Assembly: GCF_014836755.1 (NCBI RefSeq)
Contig: NZ_JACSQF010000029.1
Location: forward strand, 1-39,406
DNA from: Oerskovia merdavium
GTDB taxonomy: Bacteria; Actinomycetota; Actinomycetes; Actinomycetales; Cellulomonadaceae
Length of the DNA stretch: 39,406 bases
Reading direction: 5' to 3'
In this document: piece by piece, positions 12,835 through 36,444 of the stretch
How the letters are laid out: each line of letters starts with the position of its first letter
Position numbering within the stretch: the first letter of the stretch is position 1
Program-made: the position numbers and the translations under genes
Notes under the pieces: generated by a model
The model's input: the letters and a program-made list of their open reading frames with translations, nothing else
Database searches by the model: none
What the model was told of the DNA's origin: nothing

Positions 12835-13452
12835 ATGGACTACACCGAGGCCGACCACCCGCGCACCAGCTCAGAGCACCGCGCGGAGCGCGGCGCACTG
12901 AACGCCTCAACGGCACAGCCGAGGATGCGTGACGGCAAGTTCGCGACCAAGCCCGTCGACGAGGCGCCCGGGGGACTGAACTCCCTCGGCGGGTCGAACG
13001 TGGGGCGGTACGCGACGTTCGAGCTCTCGCCCGAGGACCGCGCCGGACGCGACATCGAGGACCTCGTGGAGGCCGTCGAGCTCGCCGCACCCGGTCAGGA
13101 GTGGAAGGCCCAGGCCCGCGAGCAGGTGCGCGCGCTGGCGCCCGACGTCGAGGAGCAGGCGTTCGGCGAGCACTGGGGCAAGGTCGAGCAGGCCTACGAG
13201 CTCGCGCGGCGCTTCGAGGACGACCCGGACCTGGCCAGCCAGGAGGAGGCCGTCGCGAACTCCCTCGTCGAGATCGAGGACTACTTCGGTGTCAACGCCG
13301 GCGACCGGCCCGGGGAGGGCGACTACGGCGGGTACGACTACTCGGCGATGAAAGACGACCTGGCCCAGGCGTGGCGCGAGGAACTGCGCGGGGCCGCGCG
13401 GGCCCTGGCGGTGGCGCAACGCGAGACGACGCGAACCACAACCGGTGCGTGA
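12835..13452 (+). CDS. Tagged protein A (HPR-DGKF tag), unknown C-terminal domain
   Basis: The 205-aa product begins at ATG 12835 directly after start module 1. The tag is the long form: HPRTSSEHRAE, an insert with ALNASTAQPRM, then RDGKFATKPVDEAPGGLNSL. Only the tagged protein at 31058 has the same insert. After the tag comes a mostly helical, acidic domain (EDLVEAVELAAPGQEW, EQAYELARRFEDDPD, LAQAWREELRGAARALAVA) with no recognised family. No signal or membrane segment. It stands apart from the main tagged cluster by about 8.4 kb, separated by the IS and replication region, which suggests either rearrangement or early duplication. Confidence 0.75.
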   Translation: MDYTEADHPRTSSEHRAERGALNASTAQPRMRDGKFATKPVDEAPGGLNSLGGSNVGRYATFELSPEDRAGRDIEDLVEAVELAAPGQEWKAQAREQVRALAPDVEEQAFGEHWGKVEQAYELARRFEDDPDLASQEEAVANSLVEIEDYFGVNAGDRPGEGDYGGYDYSAMKDDLAQAWREELRGAARALAVAQRETTRTTTGA

Positions 13453-13526
13453 ATCCCGGCGGTGATCCGCGTCGTGGTGGCTGGCGTCGTGGGCGGTCGC
13501 AGCAGAGGCGGCGCCCGCGGGTTGGG

Positions 13527-14000
13527 TCAGTCGATCTCGGGCTGGCCCATCATCGTCTCGCGGGTCGGGGCGTAGAACTCCTCGCGCAGGATCATGGCCG
13601 CGCCGATGCGGGTGGTGGCGTCCTGCGGCAGGGGCTTGATGTCCGGGGCGTCGGCCTCGGCGTCGAACCAGCCGTCGGCGGTGACCACGAGCACGGCCCG
13701 CAGGTTGTCCAGGCGCAGGCGGAGCATCTGGGCAGCCTGCGCCGCCCGGGCGGTGTCGTCGAGGTAGATCACGGCCAGGACCCCGTCAGCCTGCTCAGTC
13801 TCGGTTGCGGCCCAGCCCGCCAGGGACACCAGGTCCACGGTCGGGGGTAGGTCGATGCGGCGGATCGTGCCCGAGCTCGTGCGACCGCTCTCGTCGCTGG
13901 TCAGCGACATCACGACCATCGAGTGGTCGGGGGCGAACCCGAGCTGGTACGGGATCAGGGTCAGCACTTCGCGGGGGTCGATGACTGAGGTAGTGGTCAC
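13527..14000 (-). CDS. Short DUF4192-like protein
   Basis: GTG 14000 has GGAAGG (plus-strand 14009-14014) eight bases upstream. The 157-aa protein starts with DPREVLTLIPYQLGFAPDHSMVVMSL and continues to RRIDLPP, the pattern of DUF4192, a family common in actinobacterial genomes and elements. Family members are usually longer, so this may be a short version covering the N-terminal part. Function is unknown. It is the last gene of a minus-strand group that points toward tagged gene A. Confidence 0.7.
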   Translation of the reverse strand: MTTTSVIDPREVLTLIPYQLGFAPDHSMVVMSLTSDESGRTSSGTIRRIDLPPTVDLVSLAGWAATETEQADGVLAVIYLDDTARAAQAAQMLRLRLDNLRAVLVVTADGWFDAEADAPDIKPLPQDATTRIGAAMILREEFYAPTRETMMGQPEID

Positions 14001-14130
14001 GATCGGAGCCTTCCGTCACGGCCGACCTCGGCCAGCCCGAGGTCGTTGCGCCCGGCTCGTGGGGCGGGTCGCGAGGAAAGTCCCCGACGGGTTCAGTGCG
14101 GCCCCGGACGACCGGGCGCTCGCACAAGGG

Positions 14131-14343
14131 TCAGGCGGCGGTCGGCGGCTCGGGGGTGGACTCGTGCCCGGCGAGGGTCAGCGACTTGGGGCACGGCCAG
14201 TGCACGGTGCTCCCGGCACGTGCCGAGCAGGTGGGGCAGATCCCGAACAGGTCCGCGGTGTGCGTCAGCGCCGAGTCGACGTCCGGGTCGTACATCGACG
14301 GGACGGACCGCAGGGTCGCTCGCTTGCGCGTGGTTCGGGCCAT
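14131..14343 (-). CDS. Small Cys-containing protein, likely leaderless
   Basis: A 70-aa protein starting at ATG 14343: a basic N-terminus (ARTTRKRATLRSV), then a CPTC pair, a third Cys (WPCP) and a Pro-rich tail. It could be a small metal-binding domain with an incomplete ligand set. The start is preceded by start module 2 (CATAGGT six bases before the ATG) and no ribosome site. No family is recognised. Confidence 0.6.
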   Translation of the reverse strand: MARTTRKRATLRSVPSMYDPDVDSALTHTADLFGICPTCSARAGSTVHWPCPKSLTLAGHESTPEPPTAA

Positions 14344-14349
14344 GCTTGC

Positions 14350-14356
14350 ACCTATG
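14350..14356 (-). promoter_or_regulatory. Start module 2 upstream of the 70-aa gene
   Basis: On the minus strand, GCGCATAGGT precedes ATG 14343, with CATAGGT at -13 to -7; TGACGC lies at -36. Same arrangement as at 17034 and 36464. Confidence 0.6.
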
Positions 14357-14376
14357 CGCGCAGGCGCCCGAGAGCG

Positions 14377-17046: not shown

Positions 17047-20000
17047 ATGACTGCTACCGCGATCGAGCCCCAGTGGACCGGCGGGGACTACTGTGCCCGC
17101 ACCGAGATGGACGACCTGACCCAGGCCGGCGCGAGCACGGCAGGGGCAGCGACCAGCACCGGCACGGTCGAGATCGTCACCGGCATCACCGGCTCCGGCG
17201 CGGACAAGCTCGCCTCCTCCGCGGTGGCACCCCTGGTCGCGGCAGCCCGTGGCTACGCCAGCGTCACCCCCGCCGACGTGCGCGAGTACGTCCGCGACAC
17301 GATGGGCGCCGACCTGCGCAGCACCCAGGCCAAGCAGCTCGGCGACCTTGCCGCCAGCGGCGACGCGCTCGTCATGCCGTGGCACTCCCTGACCTCCCAC
17401 GCCCAGGGCTACGTCAGCGCCTACCAGGCCCGCCCCGCCGTGGCCCGCACCGACCCCAAGTCCGGCAACGTGCGCAAGTACGAGCAGCTGACCGGGTCCC
17501 AGACCGTCCTGGACGTGCACCCCGGCGTCCCGAACGAGTGGATGACCGGCACCCCCAAGGTCGCGTTCATCGAGGGCCTGCTCAAGGCCGACTCGGTCCT
17601 GACCGCGATGCTCCTCGAAACCGGCATCAGCCCCGAGGAACTCACCTGGCCCGAGGACGGCTCCACGACCACGGCGCGAGCACGCCTGAACGACCTCATG
17701 AGCCAGATCCAGGACGCGGACCAGGTGCTCGTCGTGGCGGTCGTGGGCGTCGGCAACTGGCACAACAACCCCGAGTGGGCGGCGCTGGACCTGCGCGGTC
17801 GCGACTCCCTGGTGTGCTTCGACGGCGACGTCGGGGACAAGTGGCAGGTCTGGGGTCAGGCCGACAGCCTGTGGGACCTGCTCTCCGGACCGAAGAAGTC
17901 CGCGCACGTGCACCTGCTCGACCTCTCGACCCAGGCCACCGACGACGGCGAGAAGGTCGGCATCGATGACTTCCTCGCGATGGGCAAGACGTGGTCCGAC
18001 GCCCTCGACCTGCTCAAGGACCGCCTGCCCCCGCGCCCACCCAAGCCCCTGGAACTTCAGGTTGGGCAGTGGCGCGTGAACGACGAGGCGCACACCGTCG
18101 AGGAGTGCGTCCAGGACACCAACGACTACGGCGGCAAGTCCGGCGCGCACTGGGAGACCCGCTGCCGGGTCGCCGGGCGCGTCCTGATGGTCGAGACCGA
18201 GCGCACCCCCACCGACTCCGAGATGATCTCCGGGGTCTTCGACCCGCCCGTCGAAGGTGTCGGCCTCTCGCGTGCCCTGGTCGAGCTCTCGTGGAAGGAC
18301 GAGGACTCCGGCGCGGTGCACACCGCCGTCGCCTCGGGCCCGGACGACATCCTCGAACTGGTCCCGCGCGAGTGGACCCGGCGTGGGGCGCACGTGCCCG
18401 CACCGGTCAAGCGTCGCCCCGACTGGCCTGCCCGCAAGGGCGAGGACTGGCTGACGGCCGTCAAGGAGCACCGCGCCGCCGAGACCGTCGAGCGCACCTC
18501 GTGGGCGCGCATGGGCTGGGTGCCGGTTCAGGGCGCGAGCCCGGTCTTCATCGTCGGCGAGCAGGTCGTGGGTCCGGACGGCCCCACCTTCGAGGCGGCG
18601 AGCATCGGCGTCAACGAGTCGGTCCTGTCCGGGGCCTCGCGCTTCGGCGTCCAGTTCCCCAGCCGTGACCTGAGCCCCGAGGCTCGTGCAGCCCAGGTGC
18701 AGGCCGACTTCCGCGCGGTCTACGCCGCGTACATCACCAACGGCGCCTGGACGTCCAAGGGGGTGGCCGCGGTCATCCTGGCTGCGATGATCCGCCCGTG
18801 CATCCCGCTGCGCACCCAGGTCTCGCTCTACATCACCGGCGCCCGAGGTGGCGGCAAGTCGTTCACCGCCTCGTTCGTGATGGCCGGGTGGCAGCCTCGC
18901 CCGGGGATCTGGTCGGAGAACCGACTGCCCGGCGCAGCCAAGGACACCATGGCCTCGACCGAGCACGCGGTAGCCCGCACCCCGATCTGGGTGATGGACG
19001 ACCTCGCGCCCTCCGCCGACCAGCGCACCGCCGACATGGAGGCAGGTCGCATGGGCGACCTGATCCGCTCGATCTACAACGGCACATCCAAGCGACGCAT
19101 GACCGCCGACATGACCAGCCGCCACGTCGCGGACCCGCACGCGCTGCTGGTCATCACCGCCGAGAACCAGCACACGGTGTCCTCGGTGCGTGACCGCCTG
19201 GTGACCCTGAGCCTGCACCGCGGGGCGCTGGGTCCAATGGACGCGACCGACGAGCTGGTGCGTCTGCGTGACGTGGACGGGGCGCCGGCGCGAGTCGTGG
19301 GCTACGTCCTTCAGCACCTGGCCAGTCAGTCAGCCGAGCTCGGCTGGGACAACGTCCGCGAGTACTACGAGGCGCAGCTCAACTCGCACACCGAGACGAT
19401 CAAGGCCGAGTTGCTGTCCCGCGGCGCCGACCAGGGTGCAGCCTCGCGGCACGCCGCGCTGCTCGCCGACCTGTCCCTGGGCCTGTCGGTCATGGGCGAC
19501 GCGGCCTCCGAGGCAGGAGTCCTGGGCATGAAGGGCGTGCTGGAGATGCTCAAGTCCGACATGGTCGACCTGATGATGGAAGCCCACTCGGACCGTGCAG
19601 AGTCCTCCCCGGGTGCCGCCGCCATCCAGGCGGTCTCGCGGCTGCTCGCCTCGGGCCGTGCCCACATCGCTGGCCTGGACCCGATGTCGCCGCCGCTGCG
19701 CGAAGAGCCGTACAGCGCCACCAACCGCAACCTGGGCTGGTCGATGGGCGGAGACGTCCTGCGACCCCAGGGCGTGTGCGTGGGAACCCTGGTCCGGCCC
19801 CGCCTCGGCGAAGAGGTCGTCATGCTCGACCCGCGGACCTCGTTCACCGAGGCCGCGCGCCACTACCGCGACCTGCTGCCCTCGGGCACGACCTCTGCCG
19901 GGGCATGGTCCGCGGCCCGTGACGAGAGACTGCTCTCCCCGGTGCGCACCCTGATCGGTGGCGGCTACCAGTCGCGGACCACGATCGCCGGGGTCGACGT

Positions 20001-20148
20001 GCGCGGGGTCCCGGTGCCGCTGTCGGTGCTGCTCAACGGTGGCCCGCTGCGCACTTCGGACGACGACCACGCCGACGAGCTCGGCGACGGCACGCACGTC
20101 CCCGACAGCCTCGCGGACACCGTCTCCGAGGAGCCCGTGAACGCCTAG
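17047..20148 (+). CDS. Primase/ATPase-like replication protein of the element
   Basis: I start at ATG 17047 because start module 2 lies directly upstream and earlier in-frame codons have no support. The 1033-aa protein seems to join two activities. The N-terminal part has a toprim-like pattern: VAFIEGLLKAD with Glu176 and LVCFDGD with Asp259 and Asp261, as in DUF3854-type primase domains. The C-terminal half has a Walker A motif GARGGGKS (residues 598-605) and Walker B WVMDDLAP (Asp651-Asp652), followed by sensor-like LVITAEN. This suits a plasmid-type replicase that primes and unwinds DNA. The neighbouring AT-rich repeat region would be its origin. Domain calls are moderately sure; biochemical role is inferred. 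Confidence 0.75.
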   Translation: MTATAIEPQWTGGDYCARTEMDDLTQAGASTAGAATSTGTVEIVTGITGSGADKLASSAVAPLVAAARGYASVTPADVREYVRDTMGADLRSTQAKQLGDLAASGDALVMPWHSLTSHAQGYVSAYQARPAVARTDPKSGNVRKYEQLTGSQTVLDVHPGVPNEWMTGTPKVAFIEGLLKADSVLTAMLLETGISPEELTWPEDGSTTTARARLNDLMSQIQDADQVLVVAVVGVGNWHNNPEWAALDLRGRDSLVCFDGDVGDKWQVWGQADSLWDLLSGPKKSAHVHLLDLSTQATDDGEKVGIDDFLAMGKTWSDALDLLKDRLPPRPPKPLELQVGQWRVNDEAHTVEECVQDTNDYGGKSGAHWETRCRVAGRVLMVETERTPTDSEMISGVFDPPVEGVGLSRALVELSWKDEDSGAVHTAVASGPDDILELVPREWTRRGAHVPAPVKRRPDWPARKGEDWLTAVKEHRAAETVERTSWARMGWVPVQGASPVFIVGEQVVGPDGPTFEAASIGVNESVLSGASRFGVQFPSRDLSPEARAAQVQADFRAVYAAYITNGAWTSKGVAAVILAAMIRPCIPLRTQVSLYITGARGGGKSFTASFVMAGWQPRPGIWSENRLPGAAKDTMASTEHAVARTPIWVMDDLAPSADQRTADMEAGRMGDLIRSIYNGTSKRRMTADMTSRHVADPHALLVITAENQHTVSSVRDRLVTLSLHRGALGPMDATDELVRLRDVDGAPARVVGYVLQHLASQSAELGWDNVREYYEAQLNSHTETIKAELLSRGADQGAASRHAALLADLSLGLSVMGDAASEAGVLGMKGVLEMLKSDMVDLMMEAHSDRAESSPGAAAIQAVSRLLASGRAHIAGLDPMSPPLREEPYSATNRNLGWSMGGDVLRPQGVCVGTLVRPRLGEEVVMLDPRTSFTEAARHYRDLLPSGTTSAGAWSAARDERLLSPVRTLIGGGYQSRTTIAGVDVRGVPVPLSVLLNGGPLRTSDDDHADELGDGTHVPDSLADTVSEEPVNA

Positions 20149-21826: not shown

Positions 21827-21868
21827 CGTTCGTTGACCGGACCCCACCGGTCCCGTCAACGAACGGGC
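21825..21868 (+). promoter_or_regulatory. Start module 1, site 2, embedded in a long inverted repeat
   Basis: CCCGTCAAC starts 17 nt before ATG 21869 and TGACCG starts at -35. Here both are parts of 19-base arms (21825-21843 and 21849-21867) that pair with one mismatch around CCACC, so the whole region could be a hairpin or a two-fold symmetric operator. Confidence 0.65.
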
Positions 21869-22624
21869 ATGAGCACCCACGACGAGTCCCTGCACCCGCG
21901 CGAGACCACGGGCAAGTTCGCGACCAAGCCAGTAGACGAGGTGGCTGGAGGATTCTCGGCCCTTGGGGCCTCTTCTACTGGGCGAGACGCACCGAGCGGA
22001 GCTCAGGACGTTCGACCGGTGGCCGAAGCCCCCGGCGGCATGGCCACCTTGGGCCCGGCCTCGATCGCACCGGCACGGTTCGTGCTGCGCAGCCACGGCA
22101 TCGGGTCCGGGATCATGGCACGCCTGGACGACGCCGAGGCTGCCGCCGTGAGCGACGAGATCGCCGAGCGCACCGCCCTCGCACCGGCCTCCCAGCACCC
22201 GGCCATCGCCCGCCAGGCCTGCTACGAGCACCTCGACTTCCGCGCGACGACCGACGACGAGCCGCTGACCATCGACAAGAGCTCGCGCATCCTGCGCTCC
22301 GCGATCGACGTCCATCACCTCGCCCGCCAGGGGTACGACCGAGCCTGGGGACGCCTGGAGGAGTCGCGCGAGCAGGGGGCCAGCGACGCCGACCTCGCCG
22401 CCGCGATGACCGACGTCGTGCACGCCGACCTGGACGTCACCGCCGCCGCGCACCGCCGCGAGCAGGCCATGTGGGACAACGTCTACCTGACTGACCCGGA
22501 CGCGTTCTGGGGCGCGGTGCACGGCGAGCCCGCCCACGCCGCCGCCGCACTGTCCACCGCCGACCGGTTCGACTCCGTCGGCTACCCGGGCGCCGTCGGG
22601 GCATGCGTCGGCCCCACGTCCTGA
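21869..22624 (+). CDS. Tagged protein B (HPR-DGKF family), helical domain
   Basis: ATG 21869 comes straight after start module 1. The 251-aa protein begins LHPRETTGKFATKPVDEVAGGFSALG, close to tagged protein N, and its linker (SSTGRDAPSGAQDVRPVAEA) is nearly the same as that of protein M. The remaining 190 residues are mostly helical (DDAEAAAVSDEIAERTALA, DLAAAMTDVVHADLDVTAAAHRREQ) with no recognised family, signal or membrane segment. It is followed by a perfect 12-bp palindrome, which may end this transcript. Confidence 0.75.
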   Translation: MSTHDESLHPRETTGKFATKPVDEVAGGFSALGASSTGRDAPSGAQDVRPVAEAPGGMATLGPASIAPARFVLRSHGIGSGIMARLDDAEAAAVSDEIAERTALAPASQHPAIARQACYEHLDFRATTDDEPLTIDKSSRILRSAIDVHHLARQGYDRAWGRLEESREQGASDADLAAAMTDVVHADLDVTAAAHRREQAMWDNVYLTDPDAFWGAVHGEPAHAAAALSTADRFDSVGYPGAVGACVGPTS

Positions 22625-22683: not shown

Positions 22684-23070
22684 ATGAGCGCGACACGAGC
22701 CAAGAGCAGGGGGCTGTCCTCCTGGGACCCCGACGCCGGGCCGGGGGAGGTCAAGGTGACTTCCCGGTCCACCGACCCGCGCTTCGAGGCGCTCGTCGAA
22801 GCGGCCAGCCACCTGCCTGCACCGGTCGCCGTCACGTTCGTGGCCCACCTGGAACACGACGGCCTGCGCTCCCAGGTCCAGTGCGGTTGGGGCACCTTCA
22901 TCGTCGACCTGACCGTCACCGGCGCCAGCGCATGGCCTGCCGGGGGAGGACGCGGCTGGAAGATCCTCGACCCGATCTCACCCCCGGCCCACCACCTGGC
23001 CGAGCTCATCACCCAGGTCGCCCACGTGGCCCCGCCGCCTGAGGCTGCGCCCGTCAACGAACAGGCATGA
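22684..23070 (+). CDS. Small untagged protein of unknown function
   Basis: The 128-aa product starts at ATG 22684 after start module 2. It contains alternating strands and helices (AVTFVAHLEHDGLRS, GWGTFIVDLTVTG), with no signal peptide or known motif. Its last codons (PVNEQA then stop) encode the CCCGTCAAC block of the following gene, and its stop overlaps that gene's ATG (ATGA at 23067-23070). So here the second start module is part of coding sequence, and the two genes probably form one unit, with gene C possibly also transcribed on its own. Confidence 0.65.
   Translation: MSATRAKSRGLSSWDPDAGPGEVKVTSRSTDPRFEALVEAASHLPAPVAVTFVAHLEHDGLRSQVQCGWGTFIVDLTVTGASAWPAGGGRGWKILDPISPPAHHLAELITQVAHVAPPPEAAPVNEQA
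23050..23066 (+). promoter_or_regulatory. Start module 1, site 3 (inside the preceding gene)
   Basis: CCCGTCAAC starts 17 nt before ATG 23067, as at the other sites, but lies within the last codons of the upstream gene. Confidence 0.55.
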
Positions 23071-23774
23071 GCACCCAGACGTTCGACGACCGGGCCCACC
23101 CGCGCGCCACAGACGGCAAGGTTGCGACCAAGGACGTGGCCGAGGCAGCCGGCGGGATGGTGGCGCTGGCCCCCGCCCCGGCCGACGACCTCACCGAGAT
23201 CCTCGGCTCGTGCTCGCGCCGGGTCCAGGCGCGACTCGAATCGCCCGGCGGGCCCGGGGACACCATGACGCTGACGGCGCTACGCCTGCGCGGTGTCGCC
23301 GCCGCCGTGCGCATGGACCACCCCGAGGCGAAGTTCGTCCAGCTCGAAGTCTCCGACAGCGCCGACGACGTCCTGTGGGTCGCGGACCTCGCAGACGCCG
23401 ACCGCCTGTCGCTGACCGACTACAGCGTCGAGCTCAGCCAGGACGAAGAGGTGTCCGACCTGCTCTGCGGCGTCGAGCCGCACCTGGTGGAGGCCAGCGC
23501 ATCGGCCGTCGACGCCGACCGTCGCCGCGGCATCTTCATGGTCGACCTCGACGCGGCCCTGGCAGCCCCCGAGCCCGTGGACGCCGGCGTCGCTGCCACC
23601 GCCCGGGCCGAAGCCATGGTCGACGGGTACCGGACCGAGCACACCGACCTCGACAAGGACGAACAGGAGGTGGCGCGCGAGATGCTCGGCGACCTGAACC
23701 AGTGGGCGTCCGCGCGCGGGATCGACCTCACAGCCCTGCTCAACGACACCCCCGCCAGCAGCAACGGTCGCTGA
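23067..23774 (+). CDS. Tagged protein C (HPR-DGKF family), paralogue of tagged protein F
   Basis: Starts at ATG 23067 with tag FDDRAHPRATDGKVATK then VAEAAGGMVALA; note Val in place of the usual Phe in DGKF. The 235-aa protein has an N-terminal alpha/beta region and a C-terminal region (FMVDLDAALA, then YRTEHTDLDKDEQEVAREML and LNQWASARGIDL) that matches protein F in order and pattern (YRFDLDAALK, YRVMHDDMDL, LYHWAQRSGVDF). So C and F are paralogues over their full length, unlike most tagged proteins. Function unknown, cytoplasmic. Confidence 0.75.
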   Translation: MSTQTFDDRAHPRATDGKVATKDVAEAAGGMVALAPAPADDLTEILGSCSRRVQARLESPGGPGDTMTLTALRLRGVAAAVRMDHPEAKFVQLEVSDSADDVLWVADLADADRLSLTDYSVELSQDEEVSDLLCGVEPHLVEASASAVDADRRRGIFMVDLDAALAAPEPVDAGVAATARAEAMVDGYRTEHTDLDKDEQEVAREMLGDLNQWASARGIDLTALLNDTPASSNGR

Positions 23775-23789: not shown

Positions 23790-23806
23790 CCCGTCAACGA
23801 ACAGGC
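23790..23806 (+). promoter_or_regulatory. Start module 1, site 4
   Basis: TGACCG at -35 (23772-23777), twelve bases, then CCCGTCAAC 17 nt before ATG 23807. No ribosome site. Confidence 0.65.
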
Positions 23807-24427
23807 ATGAGCACCCAGACGTTCGACGACCAGGCCCACCCGCGCGCCACCGACGGCAAGTTCGCGACCAAGGACGTGAGCGAGGCTCCTGGTGGACTGA
23901 GCGCGCTCAACCTCGCCCCCGAGCCCGCCGGACCGCTCGCCGAAGCGCGTACCGACGCGATCGAGCGTGCCATCGCCGACGGCCGGCTCAGCCCTGCCGC
24001 CCGCGACATGACCGCGCGCAACCTCGTCTACATGCACGCCGAGGCCGCGCACGACGGCAGCGAGCTCGCCGCGCTGGCCGACCTGGGCATCCCCGCCCTG
24101 GCCACCGTCCGCGAATCCTTCACCCCGTGCAGCCCGGGCGACCACGGGGACGACGCCGCGCTGGCCGACGAGTGCGAGTCGGGCGAGCACCTGTCCATGC
24201 TCGACACGGACGTCGTGATCGAGCTCGACTTCCCCGACGACCAGGACGAGGTCGTGTCCCTGATCGAGCGCACCGGGGCCCGGTTCTCCGCCTCGGGCGC
24301 CGAGTGGGCCTCGGACCCTGACGGGTCGCGGACCGTGGACTACGCGACCGGCAAGCGCGAGTCGGTCTCGGTGCACCTGTACGGCATGGACGAGGACACC
24401 GCCTCGATCGTCGACCGCGTCGGCTGA
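23807..24427 (+). CDS. Tagged protein D (HPR-DGKF family)
   Basis: The 206-aa product begins FDDQAHPRATDGKFATK then VSEAPGGLSAL, almost identical to the tag of protein C including the promoter block, so C and D may stem from a recent duplication of the 5' segment. After the tag come a helical stretch (TDAIERAIADGRLSPAARD) and an alpha/beta C-terminal region with acidic patches (DTDVVIELDFPDDQDEVVSLIERTG) that could be a ferredoxin-like fold; this is a weak guess. It is the last tagged gene before the IMP dehydrogenase insert. Confidence 0.75.
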   Translation: MSTQTFDDQAHPRATDGKFATKDVSEAPGGLSALNLAPEPAGPLAEARTDAIERAIADGRLSPAARDMTARNLVYMHAEAAHDGSELAALADLGIPALATVRESFTPCSPGDHGDDAALADECESGEHLSMLDTDVVIELDFPDDQDEVVSLIERTGARFSASGAEWASDPDGSRTVDYATGKRESVSVHLYGMDEDTASIVDRVG

Positions 24428-25265: not shown

Positions 25266-25306
25266 CGACCCTGCTGGACAACCTCAACACGTCCGCAGCG
25301 CTTTGA

Positions 25307-26572
<1,266 letters not shown>

Positions 26573-27592: not shown

Positions 27593-27626
27593 GACGGGCA
27601 GGCGCAGGACCAGGCCCCTGCCCGTC
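27593..27626 (+). terminator. Hairpin overlapping start module 1, site 5
   Basis: GACGGGCAGG (27593-27602) pairs perfectly with CCTGCCCGTC (27617-27626). The right arm contains the first six bases of the CCCGTCAAC block. Confidence 0.5.
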
Positions 27627-27637
27627 AACACCTGGGT
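27621..27637 (+). promoter_or_regulatory. Start module 1, site 5
   Basis: CCCGTCAAC 17 nt before ATG 27638, no ribosome site, no clear TGACCG at -35. Confidence 0.55.
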
Positions 27638-28105
27638 ATGGACACGTTCACGAGCGCAGAGCACCCCCGGGCGAACGACGGGAAGTTCACCACCAAGCCG
27701 GTCGACGAGGCCTCGGGTGGCCTGAGCGCGCTCGGCGCCTCGACGCCCTCGGGCGTAGACGCCCTGACCCGTCGCCAGTTCTCCGCGCCGCGTCAGAGCG
27801 TCTACGGCTTCACCGAGTGGGTCACCAAGGACGGAACCCTGCACCGCACCAACGGCCCCGCCGTCGAGCACGAGGACGGCGCCGAGACCTGGATGGTGCA
27901 CGGCAAGACCGTCGTGGGACGCAACGCCCGCGGCGGGGAGACCTGGTACATGGACCACCCCCAGCTCGGCTTCCGCGAAGCCACCCGCGAGGACGCCGTC
28001 GAGGCGGCGCGCGAGGTCGGGAACGCGAACATCCTGTGGGCCATCGAGGCCTACGACGACATGCACCCCGCGAGCGATTCCGACGAGAAGGGCCAGACCT
28101 CATGA
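27638..28105 (+). CDS. Tagged protein E with an LHRxNGPA repeat
   Basis: ATG 27638, 155 aa: tag AEHPRANDGKFTTKPVDEASG followed by GLSALG, then a linker and repeat-like segments (TLHRTNGPAVEHEDGAETW, followed by GKTVVG and GGETWYM). The LHRExGPAxExxDGxxxW unit is a beta-hairpin repeat resembling MORN-type repeats and is shared with proteins K and L. Its role is unknown. The C-terminal 40 residues are helical. The stop overlaps the ATG of gene F (ATGA, 28102-28105), so this gene leads a three-gene unit of tagged proteins. Confidence 0.75.
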   Translation: MDTFTSAEHPRANDGKFTTKPVDEASGGLSALGASTPSGVDALTRRQFSAPRQSVYGFTEWVTKDGTLHRTNGPAVEHEDGAETWMVHGKTVVGRNARGGETWYMDHPQLGFREATREDAVEAAREVGNANILWAIEAYDDMHPASDSDEKGQTS

Positions 28106-28815
28106 CCACGTACGACGACAGCCAGCACCCCCGGGCCACCGACGGGAAGTTCGCGATCAAGGAGGTGACCGAAGCCTCCGGCGGGCTCACGGCCCTGGCC
28201 CCCGAGTCGTGGCGCTCCGAGAGCGACCGGGTGGGCGAGCTCGGGCACCTGATCTCGCGTGCCGACCGGCGGCGCGAGGGGATCGTCGCCCGCGACCTGG
28301 CAGCCCAGGTGCGTGCGGACGTCCCCGAAGCCGCCTACCTGACCCTCGACGAGAACTGCGACCAGCCCGAGTGCTACACGCTGCACCTCGCCAGCGTCCA
28401 CGACAGCCAGGGGAACACCCTGTACGACGTGAACGAGAACCCGCGGTACACCGTCGAAGACGCGGTCGCGGGGGCAGGTCTGTCCGAGCCCGACCACGGG
28501 AGCGAGCCGGACTACATCACGACCAGCGGCACGCGGCGCGAGGGGTACTCCTACCGCTTCGACCTGGACGCGGCGCTCAAGGGCAGGCAGGGAGGGCTCG
28601 CGACCGCGGACCGAGGTCAGTCCGTCATCAACGACTACCGGGTGATGCACGACGACATGGACCTGAGCGACGAGACCGCCGCCCGCGACATGGTGACCGA
28701 CCTCTACCACTGGGCGCAGCGCTCCGGCGTCGACTTCGACGACCTGGTCTCCCGTGCGGCCGAGGTCGGGCGCGACGAGTCCGCGCTCGGGATGGTGGCG
28801 GGGAGCAAGTCGTGA
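28102..28815 (+). CDS. Tagged protein F (HPR-DGKF family), paralogue of C
   Basis: Starts at the ATGA overlap with gene E and ends in a GTGA overlap with gene G. The 237-aa protein has tag DDSQHPRATDGKFAIKEVTE followed by ASGGLTALA. The C-terminal half (FDLDAALKGR, NDYRVMHDDMDLSDETAARD, LYHWAQRSGVDFDDLV) matches tagged protein C. An N-terminal segment between the tag and this region (ARDLAAQVRADVPEAAYLTL) also fits C loosely. Being internal to an operon, it has the tag but no start module of its own. Confidence 0.75.
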   Translation: MTTYDDSQHPRATDGKFAIKEVTEASGGLTALAPESWRSESDRVGELGHLISRADRRREGIVARDLAAQVRADVPEAAYLTLDENCDQPECYTLHLASVHDSQGNTLYDVNENPRYTVEDAVAGAGLSEPDHGSEPDYITTSGTRREGYSYRFDLDAALKGRQGGLATADRGQSVINDYRVMHDDMDLSDETAARDMVTDLYHWAQRSGVDFDDLVSRAAEVGRDESALGMVAGSKS

Positions 28816-29585
28816 GCTACGACGAGCAGGCTCACCCGCGCGCCGGCGACGGGAGGTTCGCGACCAAGGACGTCGACGAGGCCGACGGCGGGTTCGGCGC
28901 CCTGCTGCCTGCCGCGCGACCGGCCGACCTGCCGCTGACCGTGGTCGAGGTCTCGGGCACCACCGGCCCCGGGACCGGCGCCCTCGTGCAGTGGCTGGAG
29001 CACTCGACCGGGCTCGGGCCCGTGCAGCTGAAGGTGGACCGCGACGAGCACTGCGTGCTGGCCCGGCTCGTCGAGAACGACGTCACGTACGCGGTGCGGT
29101 CCGCACGCGGCGGGTGCCAGGTCGTGGACACGAGCGTGCAGGGTGCCCGGCCAGCCGGGGGAGACGGGGGCCAGGACGACCTGGGTGCGACGATCCGTAG
29201 CGCCCGCGAGAACGCCATCAGCGCCGTCGCCCAGCGCCTCGCCACCCAGACCGTCGGCGAGGAGTTCGGTGCGACCAAGCACCTGCCCAACAGCGTGGAG
29301 GTCGACGACGAGTGGGGCCTGACCCGCTCGTCCCTGCCGCTGGTCGGGCGAGCGGTCACGGTGCGCCGGTTCCATGGTGAGCGCCGCGAGCTGTTCGCCA
29401 CCTACTCCGACGACCAGCTCGGCAGCATCAGCGCCCGCCAGCGCACCAACAGGGTGAACGCCGCCCTGGGGGCGATCGACCCCAACGACGCCGAGCGGGG
29501 CCAGGCGGTCCTGCACCGCTACCTCGACGTCGCCGAGTCCACCGCCCGCGACATGCGAGCCGCGGACACCGCACGACGCGCGTGA
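28812..29585 (+). CDS. Tagged protein G (HPR-DGKF family)
   Basis: GTG 28812 overlaps the stop of gene F. The 257-aa protein begins YDEQAHPRAGDGRFATKDVD then EADGGFGALL; tags of F and G are both short before HPR. After the tag comes a beta-rich region (LPLTVVEVSGTTGPG, VQLKVDRDEHCVLARL), then a long helical region (TIRSARENAISAVAQRLA) and a C-terminal helical end with RQRTNRVNAALGAID. No family recognised. It is the last gene of the E-F-G unit. Confidence 0.72.
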   Translation: MSYDEQAHPRAGDGRFATKDVDEADGGFGALLPAARPADLPLTVVEVSGTTGPGTGALVQWLEHSTGLGPVQLKVDRDEHCVLARLVENDVTYAVRSARGGCQVVDTSVQGARPAGGDGGQDDLGATIRSARENAISAVAQRLATQTVGEEFGATKHLPNSVEVDDEWGLTRSSLPLVGRAVTVRRFHGERRELFATYSDDQLGSISARQRTNRVNAALGAIDPNDAERGQAVLHRYLDVAESTARDMRAADTARRA

Positions 29586-30032: not shown

Positions 30033-30049
30033 CCCGTCAACAACAGGGC
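30033..30049 (+). promoter_or_regulatory. Start module 1, site 6
   Basis: TGACCG at -35 (30015-30020), twelve bases, then CCCGTCAAC 17 nt before ATG 30050. CATGCCC and GGGCATG (30031-30037 region and the start codon itself) can pair, which would place the ATG in a hairpin. Confidence 0.65.
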
Positions 30050-30319
30050 ATGGGAACGACACGGTTCGACGAGCAGGCGCACCCGCGGGCAACCTCCGGG
30101 CAGTTCGCCACGAAGCCAGTCCAGGACGCCGCAGGCGGGTTCGACGCACTGAGCGCACCGACGCTCGCCGAGTCCACGACCCCCGACGTCCAGGCACAGA
30201 TGGACGCCGCCTGGGACGAGTACGAGGGCGAGACGTTCTACGACGCTCGCTTCGACCCCAGCGCCGAGCTGGACGACCTCGCCGCCTACGGTCCGGGCTC
30301 CACAGCGGGTGCGCGATGA
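30050..30319 (+). CDS. Tagged protein H, short acidic
   Basis: An 89-aa product, the shortest tagged protein: tag FDEQAHPRATSGQFATKPVQ then DAAGGFDALS, followed by about 50 acidic residues (DVQAQMDAAWDEYEGETFYD). The tag therefore makes up almost half the protein, suggesting it matters in itself. The stop overlaps the ATG of gene I (30316-30319). Possibly a small partner or inhibitor of protein I; this is only positional inference. Confidence 0.7.
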   Translation: MGTTRFDEQAHPRATSGQFATKPVQDAAGGFDALSAPTLAESTTPDVQAQMDAAWDEYEGETFYDARFDPSAELDDLAAYGPGSTAGAR

Positions 30320-31020
30320 GCACCCCCACCTTCAACGAGTCCGCCCACCCCCGGTCCCGGTCGGGGAAGTGGACCGCCAAGACCGTCGACGAGGCCTTCG
30401 CCGGCATGGACGCCCTCTCGGTGAGCACGCAAGGAGCCCCGACCGCTGGCGGGACCCAGACCCAGGTCGGGGTCAAGGAGTCCGCCGCGGCCATGCGCCA
30501 CGACCTGCGCGCGAAGTTCGACCACCCGTTCTCGGTGAAGATGAGCCGCGGCACCGGGTACGGCTGGGTGCACGTCGACTGGAACGACGGCCCCCGGGCC
30601 ACGCCGGTGACCGCCATGACAGGCGCCTACTGCAACAAGCAGTTCGACGGCATGGACGACTCGTACCACCCGGTCAACGAGGACGCCCCCGTGCGGTACG
30701 GCCTGTGCGGGGTCCTGCACCAGCGCAACATCGGCCCCAAGGGGCAGGCGTACCTCGACTCCCTGTTCGACGAGGCCGAGATCTCCGGGTACCAGCGCAT
30801 CGAGCCGCGCACCGGGGAGCGCTCGGACTACGACGGCGGCTACAGCTGGTCCGAGCCCATGTCGGACCAGGACATCCACAAGCTGGAGAAGCACCTCGGG
30901 GAGTTCCTGCCCCCGCGCCTGACCAACAACTGCCCGAGCATCGCCGAGGTCGCCCACTTCGTGCACGCGCGCACTGACTTCACGGGCGAGCACCCCCTGC
31001 TCGACCTCGACTCCTACTGA
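30316..31020 (+). CDS. Tagged protein I with LPD29-like domain
   Basis: ATGA overlap with gene H. The 234-aa protein has a diverged tag (FNESAHPRSRSGKWTAKTVD then EAFAGMDAL) and then a domain beginning ESAAAMRHDLRAKFDHPFSV, followed by SRGTGYGWVHVDWNDGP and FDGMDDS. This is the pattern of LPD29, a domain known from polyvalent proteins of phages and conjugative elements that accompany DNA into the recipient. The catalytic or binding role of LPD29 is not known to me. The C-terminal part is mixed and includes LGEFLPPRLTNNCPSIAEV. Confidence 0.72.
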   Translation: MSTPTFNESAHPRSRSGKWTAKTVDEAFAGMDALSVSTQGAPTAGGTQTQVGVKESAAAMRHDLRAKFDHPFSVKMSRGTGYGWVHVDWNDGPRATPVTAMTGAYCNKQFDGMDDSYHPVNEDAPVRYGLCGVLHQRNIGPKGQAYLDSLFDEAEISGYQRIEPRTGERSDYDGGYSWSEPMSDQDIHKLEKHLGEFLPPRLTNNCPSIAEVAHFVHARTDFTGEHPLLDLDSY

Positions 31021-31057: not shown

Positions 31058-31756
31058 ATGCCCGGATTCGAGCACCAGCACCCACGCGCCAGCTCAGGGC
31101 ACCGCGCGGAGCACGGCGCACTGAACGCCTCAACGGCGCAGCCGCGGATGCGTGACGGGAAGTTCACGGACAAACCGGTCGACGAAGCGGCCGGAGGGCT
31201 GAGCGCGCTCGGTGCTGACGACCAGGCGCAGGCCGAGGTCGCCGAGCTGCTGACCCCGTACGGGCTCGAACTCCAGGACGTGCCGCTGGGCGCCGACGGG
31301 GTCTCGCTGGCCGAGCACTGGGCACGGCTGCGCGAGCAGGCGGGCGCGCCGTTGCCTGACTCGGTGACCGACGTCGTCGAGGCCCACCTGGGGATCGAGG
31401 ACTACGGGCGCCTGCGCGGGGAGCCGCGCCTGGTGTGGCTGGCCCCGGACGAGGACGGCTTGGACTGGCGCGACGCGGAGTGGGACGGCGTCGAGGTACA
31501 GGCCGGCGACGCCCGATGGGACGACCCGGACGCCGCGCTGGCGTGGCGGGTCCACACCCGCAACGGGGGCGGCAACCGCGAGTGCTGGGACGACGACCAC
31601 GACCTGTTCCGGGGTGCAAGCTCGAAGGGTTCCAGAGCGACCAGGCCGCAGCCGCCGACCCGCTACCGCGCCGACCACATCGGCGCGCCCGACGGCGCCG
31701 ACGCCCTCTCGGCCGTGACATGCGCGAGCCAAGCGGCGGACCGCGCCAGCGCCTAG
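31058..31756 (+). CDS. Tagged protein J with the long tag insert
   Basis: ATG 31058 follows AAGGA (31043-31047) at ten bases and has no start module 1. The 232-aa protein has the same long tag as protein A: HPRASSGHRAE, insert ALNASTAQPRM, then RDGKFTDKPVDEAAGGLSAL. The two are also nearly identical at the DNA level over the insert. The rest differs: an acidic alpha/beta region with RPLVW-like strands (GEPRLVWLAPDEDGLDW, WRVHTRNGGGNRECWDDD) and a low-complexity tail that may be read-through from a shortened gene. No family recognised. Confidence 0.7.
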   Translation: MPGFEHQHPRASSGHRAEHGALNASTAQPRMRDGKFTDKPVDEAAGGLSALGADDQAQAEVAELLTPYGLELQDVPLGADGVSLAEHWARLREQAGAPLPDSVTDVVEAHLGIEDYGRLRGEPRLVWLAPDEDGLDWRDAEWDGVEVQAGDARWDDPDAALAWRVHTRNGGGNRECWDDDHDLFRGASSKGSRATRPQPPTRYRADHIGAPDGADALSAVTCASQAADRASA

Positions 31757-32996: not shown

Positions 32997-33027
32997 CTAG
33001 TCCGGCCTCCCTCTGACGGCCCTCCAC

Positions 33028-33209: not shown

Positions 33210-33301
33210 GCACGCACCTATGCGAGCACGGCCCGGGGATCTTGCTCGGCCGGTGACCCACGCACAGGGCACCTGACCGACCTCAAGACAGGAGACCTCC
33301 G

Positions 33302-33469: not shown

Positions 33470-33495
33470 CGCAGGCATGACCGCTGTCGCGTAGG

Positions 33496-33512
33496 CCCGT
33501 CAACGAGCGGGT
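33496..33512 (+). promoter_or_regulatory. Start module 1, site 7
   Basis: TGACCG at -35 (33478-33483), twelve bases, then CCCGTCAAC 17 nt before ATG 33513; CCCG and CGGG can pair. Confidence 0.65.
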
Positions 33513-34232
33513 ATGAGCACCCAGACGTTCGACGACAGCGAGCACCCGCGGGCCACCGACGGGAAGTTCGCGGCCAAGCCCGTAGCGGAGGCCTCCGGCG
33601 GGCTCGACGCACTCAGCGCCACCACGGGCCCCGACACGCGCGAGGTCCGGGTCCAGGACATCGACGGCATGACCCGCACCTCCTACCTGGACGACGACGG
33701 CAAGGACCACTCGGTCGATGACCTGCCCGCCGTCGAGTGGTCCGACGGCACCCGCGAGTGGCGACGCCACGGCGAGCTGCACCGCGAGAACGGCCCCGCG
33801 ATCGAGTACCCCAACGGCGGGTACCGCTGGATGAAGGACGGCAGCGGGCACCGTATCGACGGACCGGCGCTCTCCACCCCGGACGGCTCGCGAAGCTGGG
33901 TCGTCGACGGCAAGGACGTGCCCCCGCCGACCCCCGTGCGCACCGTGGACCTGCGCACCGACGACGTGCGTGCCGCGGACCTCGTCGGCTACCAGGCCAT
34001 GGTCAACGACATCTCCGGTGGCCCGTACGTCGCGACCATCGAAGCCCCCAACCCGTTCACCGGCCACCTGCCCGTCCTGCGACTGGAGGGCGGCTCCTGG
34101 ACGCGCGCGAACCACGAGATCGAGATCGTGGACTGGCCCCCGACCCGCCGCCACCCCCAGGGGACCTCGCCCGGCAACGCGACCGGCTTCGTCGGCCCCG
34201 AGGCCCGCACCACCACCGCCCAGGAGGCATGA
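33513..34232 (+). CDS. Tagged protein K with LHRExGPA repeats
   Basis: ATG 33513, 239 aa: tag FDDSEHPRATDGKFAAKPVA then EASGGLDALS. A repeat region follows: GELHRENGPAIEYPNGGYRW, then GSGHRIDGPALSTPDGSRSW and VDGK, units of about 20-25 residues with LHRExGPAxExxxG and a Trp near the end. This predicts repeated beta hairpins. After the repeats come EIEIVDWPP and a final motif GNATGFVGPEA, which recurs at the end of protein L (GDATGFVGP). The stop overlaps the start of L (34229-34232). Function unknown. Confidence 0.75.
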   Translation: MSTQTFDDSEHPRATDGKFAAKPVAEASGGLDALSATTGPDTREVRVQDIDGMTRTSYLDDDGKDHSVDDLPAVEWSDGTREWRRHGELHRENGPAIEYPNGGYRWMKDGSGHRIDGPALSTPDGSRSWVVDGKDVPPPTPVRTVDLRTDDVRAADLVGYQAMVNDISGGPYVATIEAPNPFTGHLPVLRLEGGSWTRANHEIEIVDWPPTRRHPQGTSPGNATGFVGPEARTTTAQEA

Positions 34233-34933
34233 GCATGAGCACCACGACCACGTTCGACGAGTCGCAGTTCCGCCGCGCCACCGACGGGAAGTTCGCGACC
34301 AAGCCGGTGGATGAGGCCGCTGCCGGGATGGGCGCCCTGATCTCGCCGGCCGCAGCCCCCGCCGTCGACATCGGCAGCCGCCCGGCCCCGGTCGACATGA
34401 GCGACCTCGCCCCGAACGGTGTGGGTCCCGCCAGCCAGGTCCGCACCGCCTCCTGCGTCGAGACGCGCCACCCGAACGGCCGCACGACCCGCACCTACTC
34501 CGACCGGACCGAGACCAGCGACGCCCAGGGGCGCCTGGACAGCGTCGACGACGTCCCCTCGCGGGTGTTCGTCAGCGGCGTGCGGGCGGGCGCGAGGGAG
34601 TGGCACAAGGCGGGCGAGCTGCACCGCGAGAACGGCCCCGCGATCGAGCGCACCGGCGGGGGAGAGGCCTGGTACCTCGACGGGAAGCTGCACCGCGAGG
34701 GCGGGCCCGCCAGCACCGACAGGCACGGCAACACCTGGTGGTCGCGACACGGCGAGCTGCACCGCGAGGACGGCCCCGCCGTCGACAACCGGCAGGACTT
34801 CGGGTTCCGCCAGTGGCGCCGCAACGACGAGCTCATCGCCCACGTCGACGACGCCGACGTCACGCTCCCCGAGGGCGCGCGCGTGGGTGACGCGACCGGC
34901 TTCGTCGGTCCCCGGCTTCCCGACCAGGACTGA
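34229..34933 (+). CDS. Tagged protein L with three LHRExGPA repeats
   Basis: ATG 34229 lies in an ATGA overlap with gene K; a second ATG at 34235 is better placed for AGGAGG (34222-34227), so either may be used. The 234-aa protein has tag FDESQFRRATDGKFATKPVD (FRR instead of HPR) then EAAAGMGAL, a Ser/Thr-rich middle and repeats ELHRENGPAIERTGGGEAW, then KLHREGGPASTDRHGNTW and ELHREDGPAVDNRQDF. It ends ARVGDATGFVGP, as does K. K and L are thus paralogues sharing promoter, tag, repeats and C-terminal motif. Confidence 0.75.
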   Translation: MSMSTTTTFDESQFRRATDGKFATKPVDEAAAGMGALISPAAAPAVDIGSRPAPVDMSDLAPNGVGPASQVRTASCVETRHPNGRTTRTYSDRTETSDAQGRLDSVDDVPSRVFVSGVRAGAREWHKAGELHRENGPAIERTGGGEAWYLDGKLHREGGPASTDRHGNTWWSRHGELHREDGPAVDNRQDFGFRQWRRNDELIAHVDDADVTLPEGARVGDATGFVGPRLPDQD

Positions 34934-34936
34934 GCC

Positions 34937-35764
34937 ATGGCCCACGACACCATGTTCGACGAGCACCAGCACGTCCGCGCCACCGACGGGAAGTTCGCAT
35001 CCAAGTCAGTAGACGAGGTGGCCGGAGGGCTCTCGGCGCTTGGGGCCTCTTCTGCTGATCGAAACGCACTGAGCTCCGCTCAGGACGTCCGAGCCGTCTC
35101 GGACCCGCCCGGTGGCACCAGTGCCCTGCCCACCGCGGGTGGCGAGGAGGACTCGACCTGGCCTGGGGTCACCGATGCGGACGTCGAGGCGTTCACGCTC
35201 TCGGGGTGCGACGTCCTGGCCAACGAGCTCCACTCGCGCACCGGGTGGCCGGTCGTGCTGGTCTGCGACGGGCCGGGCGGTGGGCTCGGGTGGGTCCACG
35301 CCGGGGTGCAGGCGCCCGACGGGCGCGTCATCGACGCTGCGGGCATCCACGACAGCGACAAGTGGCTCGACGACTGGGGTGAGGCCGCGGACGCCTTCGG
35401 TGAGGACGTCGAGGACTACGACGGGGACGACGTGACGGTTCTGCCCGCCGCCGACCTCGGATGGTCCAGGCCGTGGCACGGACCTCCGTCACCCGAGGAC
35501 TCCGCGGCGGCGAGCCGGGTCGCTGACCTCATCACTGCGGCCCCCGACTTCCCGGCCGCGAGCACGCACGACGACGGCGACCGGTCCGAACTGTGTCAGG
35601 AGTGCGGGCACGAGCTGAACGACAACGAGGGCTACGACGGTATGTGCGGCTCGTGCGTGGATGCCAGAACCTGCCCAGAATGCGGGGAGATGAAGGATTC
35701 CCCGCGCGATGAGGAGTGCCCCGACTGCATGAAGGTCGAGACGGCGAACCTGCTCCACATGTGA
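34937..35764 (+). CDS. Tagged protein M with C-terminal zinc ribbons
   Basis: ATG 34937 is three bases after the stop of L, with AGGA (34926-34929) upstream. The 275-aa protein has tag FDEHQHVRATDGKFASKSVD then EVAGGLSALG and a linker very close to that of protein B. The middle is acidic alpha/beta (LVCDGPGGGLGWVHAGVQAP). The C-terminus holds two four-Cys clusters: CQEC and CGSC, then CPEC and CPDC, typical zinc ribbons. Binding to nucleic acid or protein is likely but unproven. A perfect hairpin follows the stop. Confidence 0.78.
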   Translation: MAHDTMFDEHQHVRATDGKFASKSVDEVAGGLSALGASSADRNALSSAQDVRAVSDPPGGTSALPTAGGEEDSTWPGVTDADVEAFTLSGCDVLANELHSRTGWPVVLVCDGPGGGLGWVHAGVQAPDGRVIDAAGIHDSDKWLDDWGEAADAFGEDVEDYDGDDVTVLPAADLGWSRPWHGPPSPEDSAAASRVADLITAAPDFPAASTHDDGDRSELCQECGHELNDNEGYDGMCGSCVDARTCPECGEMKDSPRDEECPDCMKVETANLLHM

Positions 35765-35771
35765 GCCACGG

Positions 35772-35795
35772 CGGGGCCGGTACCCACCGGCCCCG
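35772..35795 (+). terminator. Hairpin after tagged gene M
   Basis: CGGGGCCGGT and ACCGGCCCCG form a perfect 10-bp stem with loop ACCC. The right arm enters the CCCGTCAAC block of the next gene. Confidence 0.6.
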
Positions 35796-35808
35796 TCAAC
35801 GAACAGGC
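35792..35808 (+). promoter_or_regulatory. Start module 1, site 8
   Basis: CCCGTCAAC 17 nt before ATG 35809; GGGCCG rather than TGACCG at the -35 position. Confidence 0.6.
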
Positions 35809-36444
35809 ATGAGCACCCACGACGAAGCCCTGCACCCGCGCGAGACCACGGGCAGGTTCGCGACCAAGCCCGTCGACGAGGTGGCCGGCGGGCTCAGCGC
35901 CCTGACCGCTGACATCGACCCGGTCAAGGCCCAGTACGTCGAGGAAGCCGCAGCGGTGGGCGTGCCGGCTGGCATGACGTACGCCCTGGAGTCCGACGAC
36001 ATCGAACGCCTCCTGCCGGTCCTGAGCATCACCGACGACCGTCAGACCCGGCGCGAGCGCGTCGAGTCGTACTGCACCTGGCGCGAAGCGTGGCGCACCG
36101 CCACGCCGAACCGTGAGGGAGCCGCCGACCTGGTCGCCCACTCGCGCGGCCAGCTGAAGGCCGCGATCGAACGCCGGGGACGCCTGAGCATGGCCGACGG
36201 CGAGGCCCAGATCAGCGAAGCCGAGACGGACGTCTTCCGCTCCGCCCAGCGCTGGCTGATGGCCTGCGACGACGAGCGAGCCCTGACCCCCGGCGTCACG
36301 CCCCGCCACCCCTCGGCCACCGCACGGGTCACCGACCCTGCCTACCGAGGCCAGGCCATGGCCTACCCCGAGCGTTCAGACGCGGCCGGCTACGAGGTCC
36401 CGATGGTCTCCGAGCTGCGGGAACTGCTCGACTCCCAGACCTGA
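35809..36444 (+). CDS. Tagged protein N (HPR-DGKF family), helical
   Basis: ATG 35809, 211 aa: DEALHPRETTGRFATKPVDE then VAGGLSAL, nearly the same tag as protein B (LHPRETTGKF). A helical body follows (VKAQYVEEAAAVGVPAGM, ESYCTWREAWRTATPN, DLVAHSRGQLKAAIERRG) and a short end containing SELRELLDS. No family recognised, no membrane segment. It is the last tagged gene in the window, immediately before the nuclease gene with start module 2. Confidence 0.75.
   Translation: MSTHDEALHPRETTGRFATKPVDEVAGGLSALTADIDPVKAQYVEEAAAVGVPAGMTYALESDDIERLLPVLSITDDRQTRRERVESYCTWREAWRTATPNREGAADLVAHSRGQLKAAIERRGRLSMADGEAQISEAETDVFRSAQRWLMACDDERALTPGVTPRHPSATARVTDPAYRGQAMAYPERSDAAGYEVPMVSELRELLDSQT

Follow-up and report, generated by a model that had tools for sequence, protein, structure and literature searches.

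Unrelated soluble proteins of large actinobacterial elements share an N-terminal tag, a candidate recognition signal for the transfer machinery

We analysed a stretch of 39,406 nucleotides from Oerskovia merdavium (contig NZ_JACSQF010000029.1), in the following called the window, which is the whole contig (G000:C21) and in which a mobile element is cut at base 39406. Fourteen genes in the window encode an N-terminal tag of 31-51 residues on bodies most of which are unrelated to each other. The conservation of the tag at the protein level, its element-specific versions, the solubility of its bearers and the mostly clustered arrangement of its genes support well that it is a selected recognition signal common to many unrelated element proteins. 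More tentatively, and from sequence comparison, we propose that it may act as an N-terminal recognition peptide marking soluble accessory proteins for the element's own transfer machinery and for delivery together with the DNA.

All 14 open reading frames (ORFs) which the initial annotation had grouped by their common start are present and read as described, the tags being located as follows:

12835..12987, + strand: tag of A (gene 12835-13452), carrying a 20-residue insert
21869..21964, + strand: tag of B (gene 21869-22624), which holds a partial second tag at 22016-22060
23067..23168, + strand: tag of C (gene 23067-23774)
23807..23908, + strand: tag of D (gene 23807-24427)
27638..27733, + strand: tag of E (gene 27638-28105)
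28102..28197, + strand: tag of F (gene 28102-28815), the start overlapping the stop of E
28812..28904, + strand: tag of G (gene 28812-29585), with a GTG start overlapping the stop of F
30050..30151, + strand: tag of H (gene 30050-30319; 89 aa)
30316..30417, + strand: tag of I (gene 30316-31020), with an LPD29 body, the start overlapping the stop of H
31058..31210, + strand: tag of J (gene 31058-31756), carrying a 20-residue insert
33513..33614, + strand: tag of K (gene 33513-34232)
34229..34339, + strand: tag of L (gene 34229-34933), the start overlapping the stop of K
34937..35041, + strand: tag of M (gene 34937-35764), with a weak double zinc ribbon
35809..35904, + strand: tag of N (gene 35809-36444)

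A profile built from the 14 tags recovers each of them with E-values from 1.9e-22 to 2.5e-18, values which are partly given by construction, the same 14 rows having built the profile. Its single further match at E<=1 in the 4,486,858-base genome G000 is the partial second tag within B (E 0.05). The proposed HPR-DGKF pattern holds overall, with deviations: A and J carry the 20-residue insert between HPR and DGKF, C reads GKV instead of GKF, and L and M read FRR and HVR instead of HPR. No Pfam family matches the tags of the 14 window proteins (E<=1 for ten, E<=0.1 for four), and the tag did not prove to be part of a known folded domain. As for the bodies, similarity at E<1e-3 with the tags excluded is found within the window for C/F, K/L, E/K and E/L and additionally for a short B/M stretch. 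The LPD29 domain assigned to I is solid (E 6.5e-15; 56 bits against a Pfam cut-off of 27), whereas the zinc ribbon assigned to M stays below the Pfam cut-off (20.7 against 27.3 bits). H, described before as almost half tag, devotes 34 of its 89 residues to it. In G002, a genome of the same genus, the orthologue of F (C3:103111-103842) is broken by a stop after residue 55.

Tags of this kind extend far beyond the window. A second profile (A2, RVPAG..GGQF..E..V.L), built from 22 tags, gives 49 matches in pACHL01, 39 in NZ_CP104273, 38 in NZ_CP053545, 31 in NZ_CP099467, 9 and 5 in two Curtobacterium plasmids, 58 in genome G131, 4 in G002 and one each in G010 and G173. The tag of the window falls in a broader class, R...G-x-[FWY]...E...L, which occurs on 5-49 proteins per plasmid in the six large Micrococcales plasmids searched as well as in related integrated elements. 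Both profiles together with a home-made ORF caller yielded 200 tagged ORFs in 15 stretches (202 with more of pACHL01), and over 150 tagged proteins of several genera the tag residues M, R, G, F, E and L vary hardly or not at all. In G420, a relative of 56% GC, a run of about 11 genes starts like (E/D)HPRxxxGx(F/Y/W)xxK...LP, of which a pattern picked out eight and inspection by eye three. Tags intermediate between the two types, such as HPRTPSGVSTGGQFATK in G131, and homologous bodies suggest that the HPR and GGQF forms belong to one class. GGQF tags were detected at E<=1e-5 in 11 of 396 genomes of an order-level sample and in 2 of 394 of a class-level sample, some genomes holding arrays (G475, 20 in 141 kb) and others one or two tags; the large genome searches scored 19-34 or 20 first-look candidates per genome, so that these counts are lower bounds and the status "no tag" of the 16 control genomes considered below is provisional.

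The matches are mostly clustered and the tag did not turn out to be a scattered chromosomal family, an explanation which the clustering disfavours although eight genomes hold just one or two tags. Two matches in Streptomyces plasmids (E 0.7) were dismissed as chance, the one fetched lying opposite in strand to an annotated gene. For the tagged protein with the widest distribution, the body was found at three loci in genome contigs, two of them in genomes already considered here, and had no match in viral contigs. Three tag queries gave no match at E<=1 in annotated phages, such short queries being insensitive. In a single case, on viral contig L036 (4695-4748), HPRETTGKFTAKP stands inside a phage head protein of the MuF type, where it follows the MuF region and precedes a C-terminus which by eye is GNAT/NUDIX-like. 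Searches of open-access full texts turned up no description of the tag, a looser one among them within the 8 listed of 40 hits.

The tag follows the element rather than the host or the body. Among cross-element homologous pairs (BLAST, E<=1e-4; 136 without and 146 with the window copies), 26 of the 136 combine an HPR-type with a GGQF-type tag and 82 two GGQF-type tags, the other 28 being considered below. The protein at C3:28973 and its pACHL01 counterpart, for instance, are 39% identical over 288 aa and bear different tags, and one body recurs, under different tags, in four elements (the copy of NZ_CP104273 being read from a start inside its tag). Tags resemble those of their own element more than that of the orthologue (similarity 0.583 versus 0.496; 38 of 52 pairs, sign test p 0.001, the pairs not being independent). 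Because G002 carries HPR tags as well as GGQF tags, the latter at C3 128.9-130.7 kb, tag type does not follow the host.

The codons point to conservation of the tag as protein. At identical tag residues codon match in the window is 0.598 versus 0.585 expected, and in four other groups match and expectation are 0.587/0.564, 0.522/0.498, 0.624/0.589 and 0.540/0.489, an excess of 0.023-0.051. Because the match barely exceeds the expectation from codon usage and is far from identity, the tags are judged to be old and kept as protein; recent duplication or conservation at the DNA or RNA level is ruled out by this comparison. Between the window and G002, the proportions of nonsynonymous (pN) and synonymous (pS) changes are 0.011 and 0.032 in tags and 0.012 and 0.040 in bodies, too few changes to separate the two.

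Tag bearers are soluble proteins. Hydrophobic segments, scored with a 19-residue hydropathy window, occur in 1 of 164 tagged versus 316 of 1226 untagged proteins (p 1.5e-18), and the tagged bodies are more acidic, having a median charge per 100 residues of -5.7 (157 bodies) versus -2.8 for soluble untagged proteins (606; p 2e-15). Within each element the bodies are mostly unrelated, 22 tagged ORFs forming 20 clusters on C3 of G002 and 42, 57 and 46 forming 34, 52 and 42 clusters in other elements. We compared 150 tagged ORFs, which are the 162 less 12 mostly short ones, with 150 drawn at random from 884 untagged ORFs of 80-600 residues, and found 19 Pfam families in the tagged and 76 in the untagged set. 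Among the families of the tagged set are DUF7007, Fic, polyA polymerase/HD, LPD29, DUF2958, ArdcN, M78 and ParBc_2, the polyvalent-type domains among these being a minority (LPD29 2, ArdcN 1, Fic 3 and ParBc_2 1 of 150 proteins). PADLOC recognised 11 families among the 150 tagged proteins, the top one being a Fic model with three members.

A candidate for the constant partner gene considered in the initial annotation is an FtsK-like ATPase: of the 14 genomes or records with at least three tags 13 have a match to it, and of the 24 others, 8 of which hold one or two tags and 16 of which gave no tag, none has (p 2.6e-9). The copy of G131 is weakly TraB-like in NCBIfam (E 1.3e-8, far under the cut-off). 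In addition, a block consisting of tagged gene(s), two small proteins, a VirB6-like protein and a further tagged gene is kept in 4/4 elements, with tagged genes on either side of the membrane-protein operon; in G131 the downstream one (MYTLPQTQPRTNDGRYSH) was recognised by eye. Both the co-occurrence and this gene order favour a link of the tag to transfer.

These data directly support the tag, its protein-level conservation, its element-specific versions, the solubility of the proteins bearing it, its co-occurrence with the ATPase and the order of the genes. If the tag were a peptide binding a partner that the element encodes, this would explain the element-wide sharing, the element-specific versions, the protein conservation and the soluble bearers. 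As the best of the readings, though itself less likely than not, we propose a model according to which large conjugative or integrative elements of Actinomycetota would mark a kit of soluble accessory proteins with the tag, a partner encoded by the element would bind it, the FtsK-like ATPase and the VirB6-like membrane complex being the likeliest candidates, and the marked proteins would dock at the transfer site and be delivered with the DNA into the recipient. Here we infer the ATPase or the complex as the partner, the binding and the delivery of any protein; since the transfer machinery is the best candidate partner, delivery with the DNA may follow. Extended further, the tag might be a dedicated, element-specific N-terminal address that sends a modular kit of up to ~50 unrelated proteins through the transfer apparatus, any soluble protein being enrolled by gaining it and tag and receptor co-evolving so that coresident elements carry no foreign cargo; we consider this possible, yet somewhat unlikely in its full form.

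Several observations weigh against delivery by the transfer machinery. Of the 136 homologous pairs, 28 have an untagged partner (starts not checked singly), and most tagged bodies, with 19 Pfam families over 150 proteins, fall in no known family. The HPR and GGQF profiles find each other poorly, A2 having no match in G000, and G420 is tag-rich by eye and pattern with a single profile match. Five of the 13 genomes or records with the ATPase had themselves supplied the ATPase model, and given the relatedness of the elements a shared backbone may explain the association. Neither the FtsK-like ATPase nor, in a search run without a positive control, a VirB8-like protein was found in G000, the window's own genome with its 14 tags. 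The VirB4-type ATPase matches AAA_10 in Pfam (E 3.4e-10) yet stays far under the NCBIfam cut-offs, and the VirB6-like and VirB8-like proteins are named by size, place and gross features, no library naming them. Translocation signals of the F plasmid, moreover, are reported to be C-terminal or internal (PMC11288057).

The same facts about the tag would be expected if it served docking without delivery, bringing accessory proteins to an element-encoded partner in the donor, be it a replication, partition or membrane complex. Such docking would fit the tagged genes flanking the membrane-protein operon in all four elements as well as the polyA-polymerase and HD bodies, which could act in the donor, but on its own it gives no reason for the tagging of conflict-type bodies, e.g. 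LPD29, ArdcN and Fic. We regard docking alone as doubtful, though a serious alternative. Of packaging with the DNA, which the initial annotation had offered as a shared fate besides transfer and partner binding, the phage form is not favoured. We scanned 54 untagged proteins of the G002 element (51 of 63 from C3, 3 from C40) against PHROG, and among 25 listed of 64 families the only head-and-packaging matches were to terminases; these fall on intein-like inserts at residues 475-1061 and 434-759 of two ATPases.

A degradation signal, by which a protease or its adaptor would remove the whole set together, would likewise use a short tag to give many soluble proteins a single fate, and on pACHL01 a Clp N-terminal domain is annotated in four proteins, a check of one of them giving PF02861 at E 9.8e-14. 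This is unlikely, because a host protease would have no need of a tag type that tracks the element, as seen in G002 with both types. The four Clp-annotated proteins are neighbours (L109:2527-5951) and may be protease adaptors or decoys.

Recombination has acted on the tag genes locally, as the following in-frame segments, both absent from the G002 orthologues, illustrate:

12871..12930, + strand: 60-base insert in the tag of A
31094..31153, + strand: 60-base insert in the tag of J

Conversely, the G002 orthologues of G and K carry the 60-base insert and those of the window do not. Six copies of the segment, including those on G002 C40 near 1250 and 9550, agree at 44-54 of 56 bases, the segment being gained or lost by local recombination at one exact tag site between related genomes. 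One could thus regard the tag as a functionless relic made alike by duplication, gene conversion and shuffling of gene ends, to which the presence or absence of the segment at one place in four orthologous tags of two genomes, in both directions, and the partial second tag in B would correspond. We judge this very unlikely, as synonymous sites are near saturation while residues are retained, R, G, F, E and L hardly vary among 150 proteins from several genera, and similar tags are present in the 56% GC relative G420.

Directly upstream of the start codon, eight of the 14 tagged window genes have a leader of 17 bases, which had escaped the initial annotation:

12818..12834, + strand: leader CCCGTCAACACACGGGT before A
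21852..21868, + strand: leader CCCGTCAACGAACGGGC before B
23050..23066, + strand: leader CCCGTCAACGAACAGGC before C
23790..23806, + strand: leader CCCGTCAACGAACAGGC before D
27621..27637, + strand: leader CCCGTCAACACCTGGGT before E
30033..30049, + strand: leader CCCGTCAACAACAGGGC before H
33496..33512, + strand: leader CCCGTCAACGAGCGGGT before K
35792..35808, + strand: leader CCCGTCAACGAACAGGC before N

The six genes without leader closely follow a tagged gene, F, G, I and L overlapping its stop and M and J starting 3 and 37 bases behind it. Allowing at most one mismatch, CCCGTCAACNNNCNGGNNTG occurs eight times in G000, always directly before tagged genes, and 17 times in G002, where 13 copies adjoin a tagged start, one lies 28 bases upstream of a further tagged start and the other three are elsewhere or unchecked; in G131 it occurs five times, twice at HPR tags, and in the genus-mates G001, G003 and G004 two times each, the reversed-pattern control giving 1-5 per genome. 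At a constant distance of 8 bases from the start, CCGTCAAC is found before 20 of 36 tagged versus 0 of 112 untagged Oerskovia genes (p 3e-15, window genes and their G002 orthologues both counted), and leaders of the CGCATAGG type precede none of the same 36 tagged and 18 of the 112 untagged genes (p 0.007). Local leaders of other elements are enriched before tagged genes without being exclusive to them (40/57 versus 60/315, 29/42 versus 52/419 and 24/46 versus 45/470). An ECF-type (extracytoplasmic function) promoter was discarded as an explanation of the leader, no common -35 element being visible upstream by eye. That leader and first codons form a translation-initiation unit with the tag as its by-product would agree with the fixed position of CCGTCAAC before tagged genes, but is hardly probable at all, given codons near the codon-usage expectation at identical residues, 15 of 36 tagged genes lacking the leader close behind an upstream gene, and local leaders preceding untagged genes too in three other element sets.

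Besides the tagged genes, the window contains parts of the element backbone:

10786..11910, - strand: tyrosine recombinase near the left element end (Phage_integrase, E 3.4e-08; 98% orthologue on G002 C40)
17047..20148, + strand: large untagged core protein (no Pfam family; 98.7% to G002 C3:111724, which matches NZ_CP104273 and pACHL01)
36477..38261, + strand: untagged core PD-(D/E)XK nuclease (PDDEXK_1, E 8.5e-19; 99.6% to G002 C3:93127; homologues in three other elements)
38364..38843, + strand: untagged core protein (100% to G002 C3:92545; homologues in three other elements)

The window genes at 12.8-15.4 kb have close orthologues on G002 contig C40, and of six untagged proteins checked at 17.0-38.8 kb five are 96-100% identical to G002 C3, the sixth (26723) having no match. 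The G002 element encodes a DnaE-type polymerase, a thymidylate synthase, SNF2-type and DinG-type helicases, a VirB4-type AAA_10 ATPase and the FtsK-like ATPase, and much of the backbone is common to NZ_CP104273, pACHL01, G131 and G002. Transposase-like ORFs, recognised by eye in two frames at 15623-16536 where G002 has other element genes, suggest a deletion or insertion; because the transposase region (15.4-17.0 kb) replaces element genes present in G002, the element copy of the window is probably truncated. Near the integrase, an ORF on the - strand (9624-9977) reads GVRIPPGAP, which we take to be typical of a tRNA 3' end and which may mark an attachment site; ARAGORN found no whole tRNA there. 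Between D and E (24786-26572) lie a MarR-like regulator and an IMP-dehydrogenase-like gene, both named by sequence reading, partly in a low-GC patch (57%). Intein-like inserts are seen in three proteins of the G002 element, the VirB4-type ATPase (L041:4717-9000), the SNF2-type helicase (L040:16426-19983) and the FtsK-like ATPase (L044:12585-15785), indicated by Hint or LAGLIDADG matches in the first two and by an alignment gap together with terminase-type matches in the third. The annotation of pACHL01 (L065-L069, L108-L111) lists a ribonucleotide reductase, DNA ligases, SecY/E/G, a tRNA-His guanylyltransferase-type protein and DnaE, which recalls giant phages.

Should the tag serve delivery, sequence alone would reveal which proteins a class of large plasmids carries as cargo, many "hypothetical" proteins would gain a hint to their function, and chosen proteins might be sent from one laboratory bacterium to another by means of a short tag. 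Should it serve docking, it would even so represent a large, apparently undescribed protein-sorting system inside bacteria.

Known systems share single features with the one described here. In phage T4 the internal proteins carry an N-terminal capsid-targeting sequence that routes unrelated proteins into the delivery vehicle; in the element, in contrast, no head or tail protein was recognised among the 25 listed of 64 families. Fic is reportedly one of the domains of the study on polyvalent proteins. These proteins of phages and conjugative elements are thought to be delivered with the DNA and share with the tagged proteins LPD29, ArdC-N or ParB-like domains on mobile elements, but they comprise 2 to 15 domains whereas the tagged proteins have a median of 266 residues, and the account, as far as its available part goes, describes no common N-terminal tag (PMC5512222). 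F plasmid conjugation is reported to move plasmid proteins to recipients (PMC8406263), and N-terminal signals of unspecified character are mentioned for other type IV systems (PMC11288057). The substrates of the F-type type IV secretion system, as described there, resemble the proposed reading in that a feature on several plasmid or host proteins enables their conjugative transfer to recipients; different from these, one recognisable N-terminal tag, known from sequence alone, is found here on tens of proteins in an element-specific version. The leader finally resembles the Start-Associated Sequences of Cluster K mycobacteriophages, 13-bp repeats (GGGATAGGAGCCC) with the Shine-Dalgarno core AGGAG typically 3-7 bp from the start (PMC3203893). 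Both are short repeats just upstream of many unrelated element genes, have GGG and CCC ends and are nearly absent from the host genome, whereas the leader, CCCGTCAAC, has no AGGAG, is always 8 bases from the start and in Oerskovia precedes only tagged genes.

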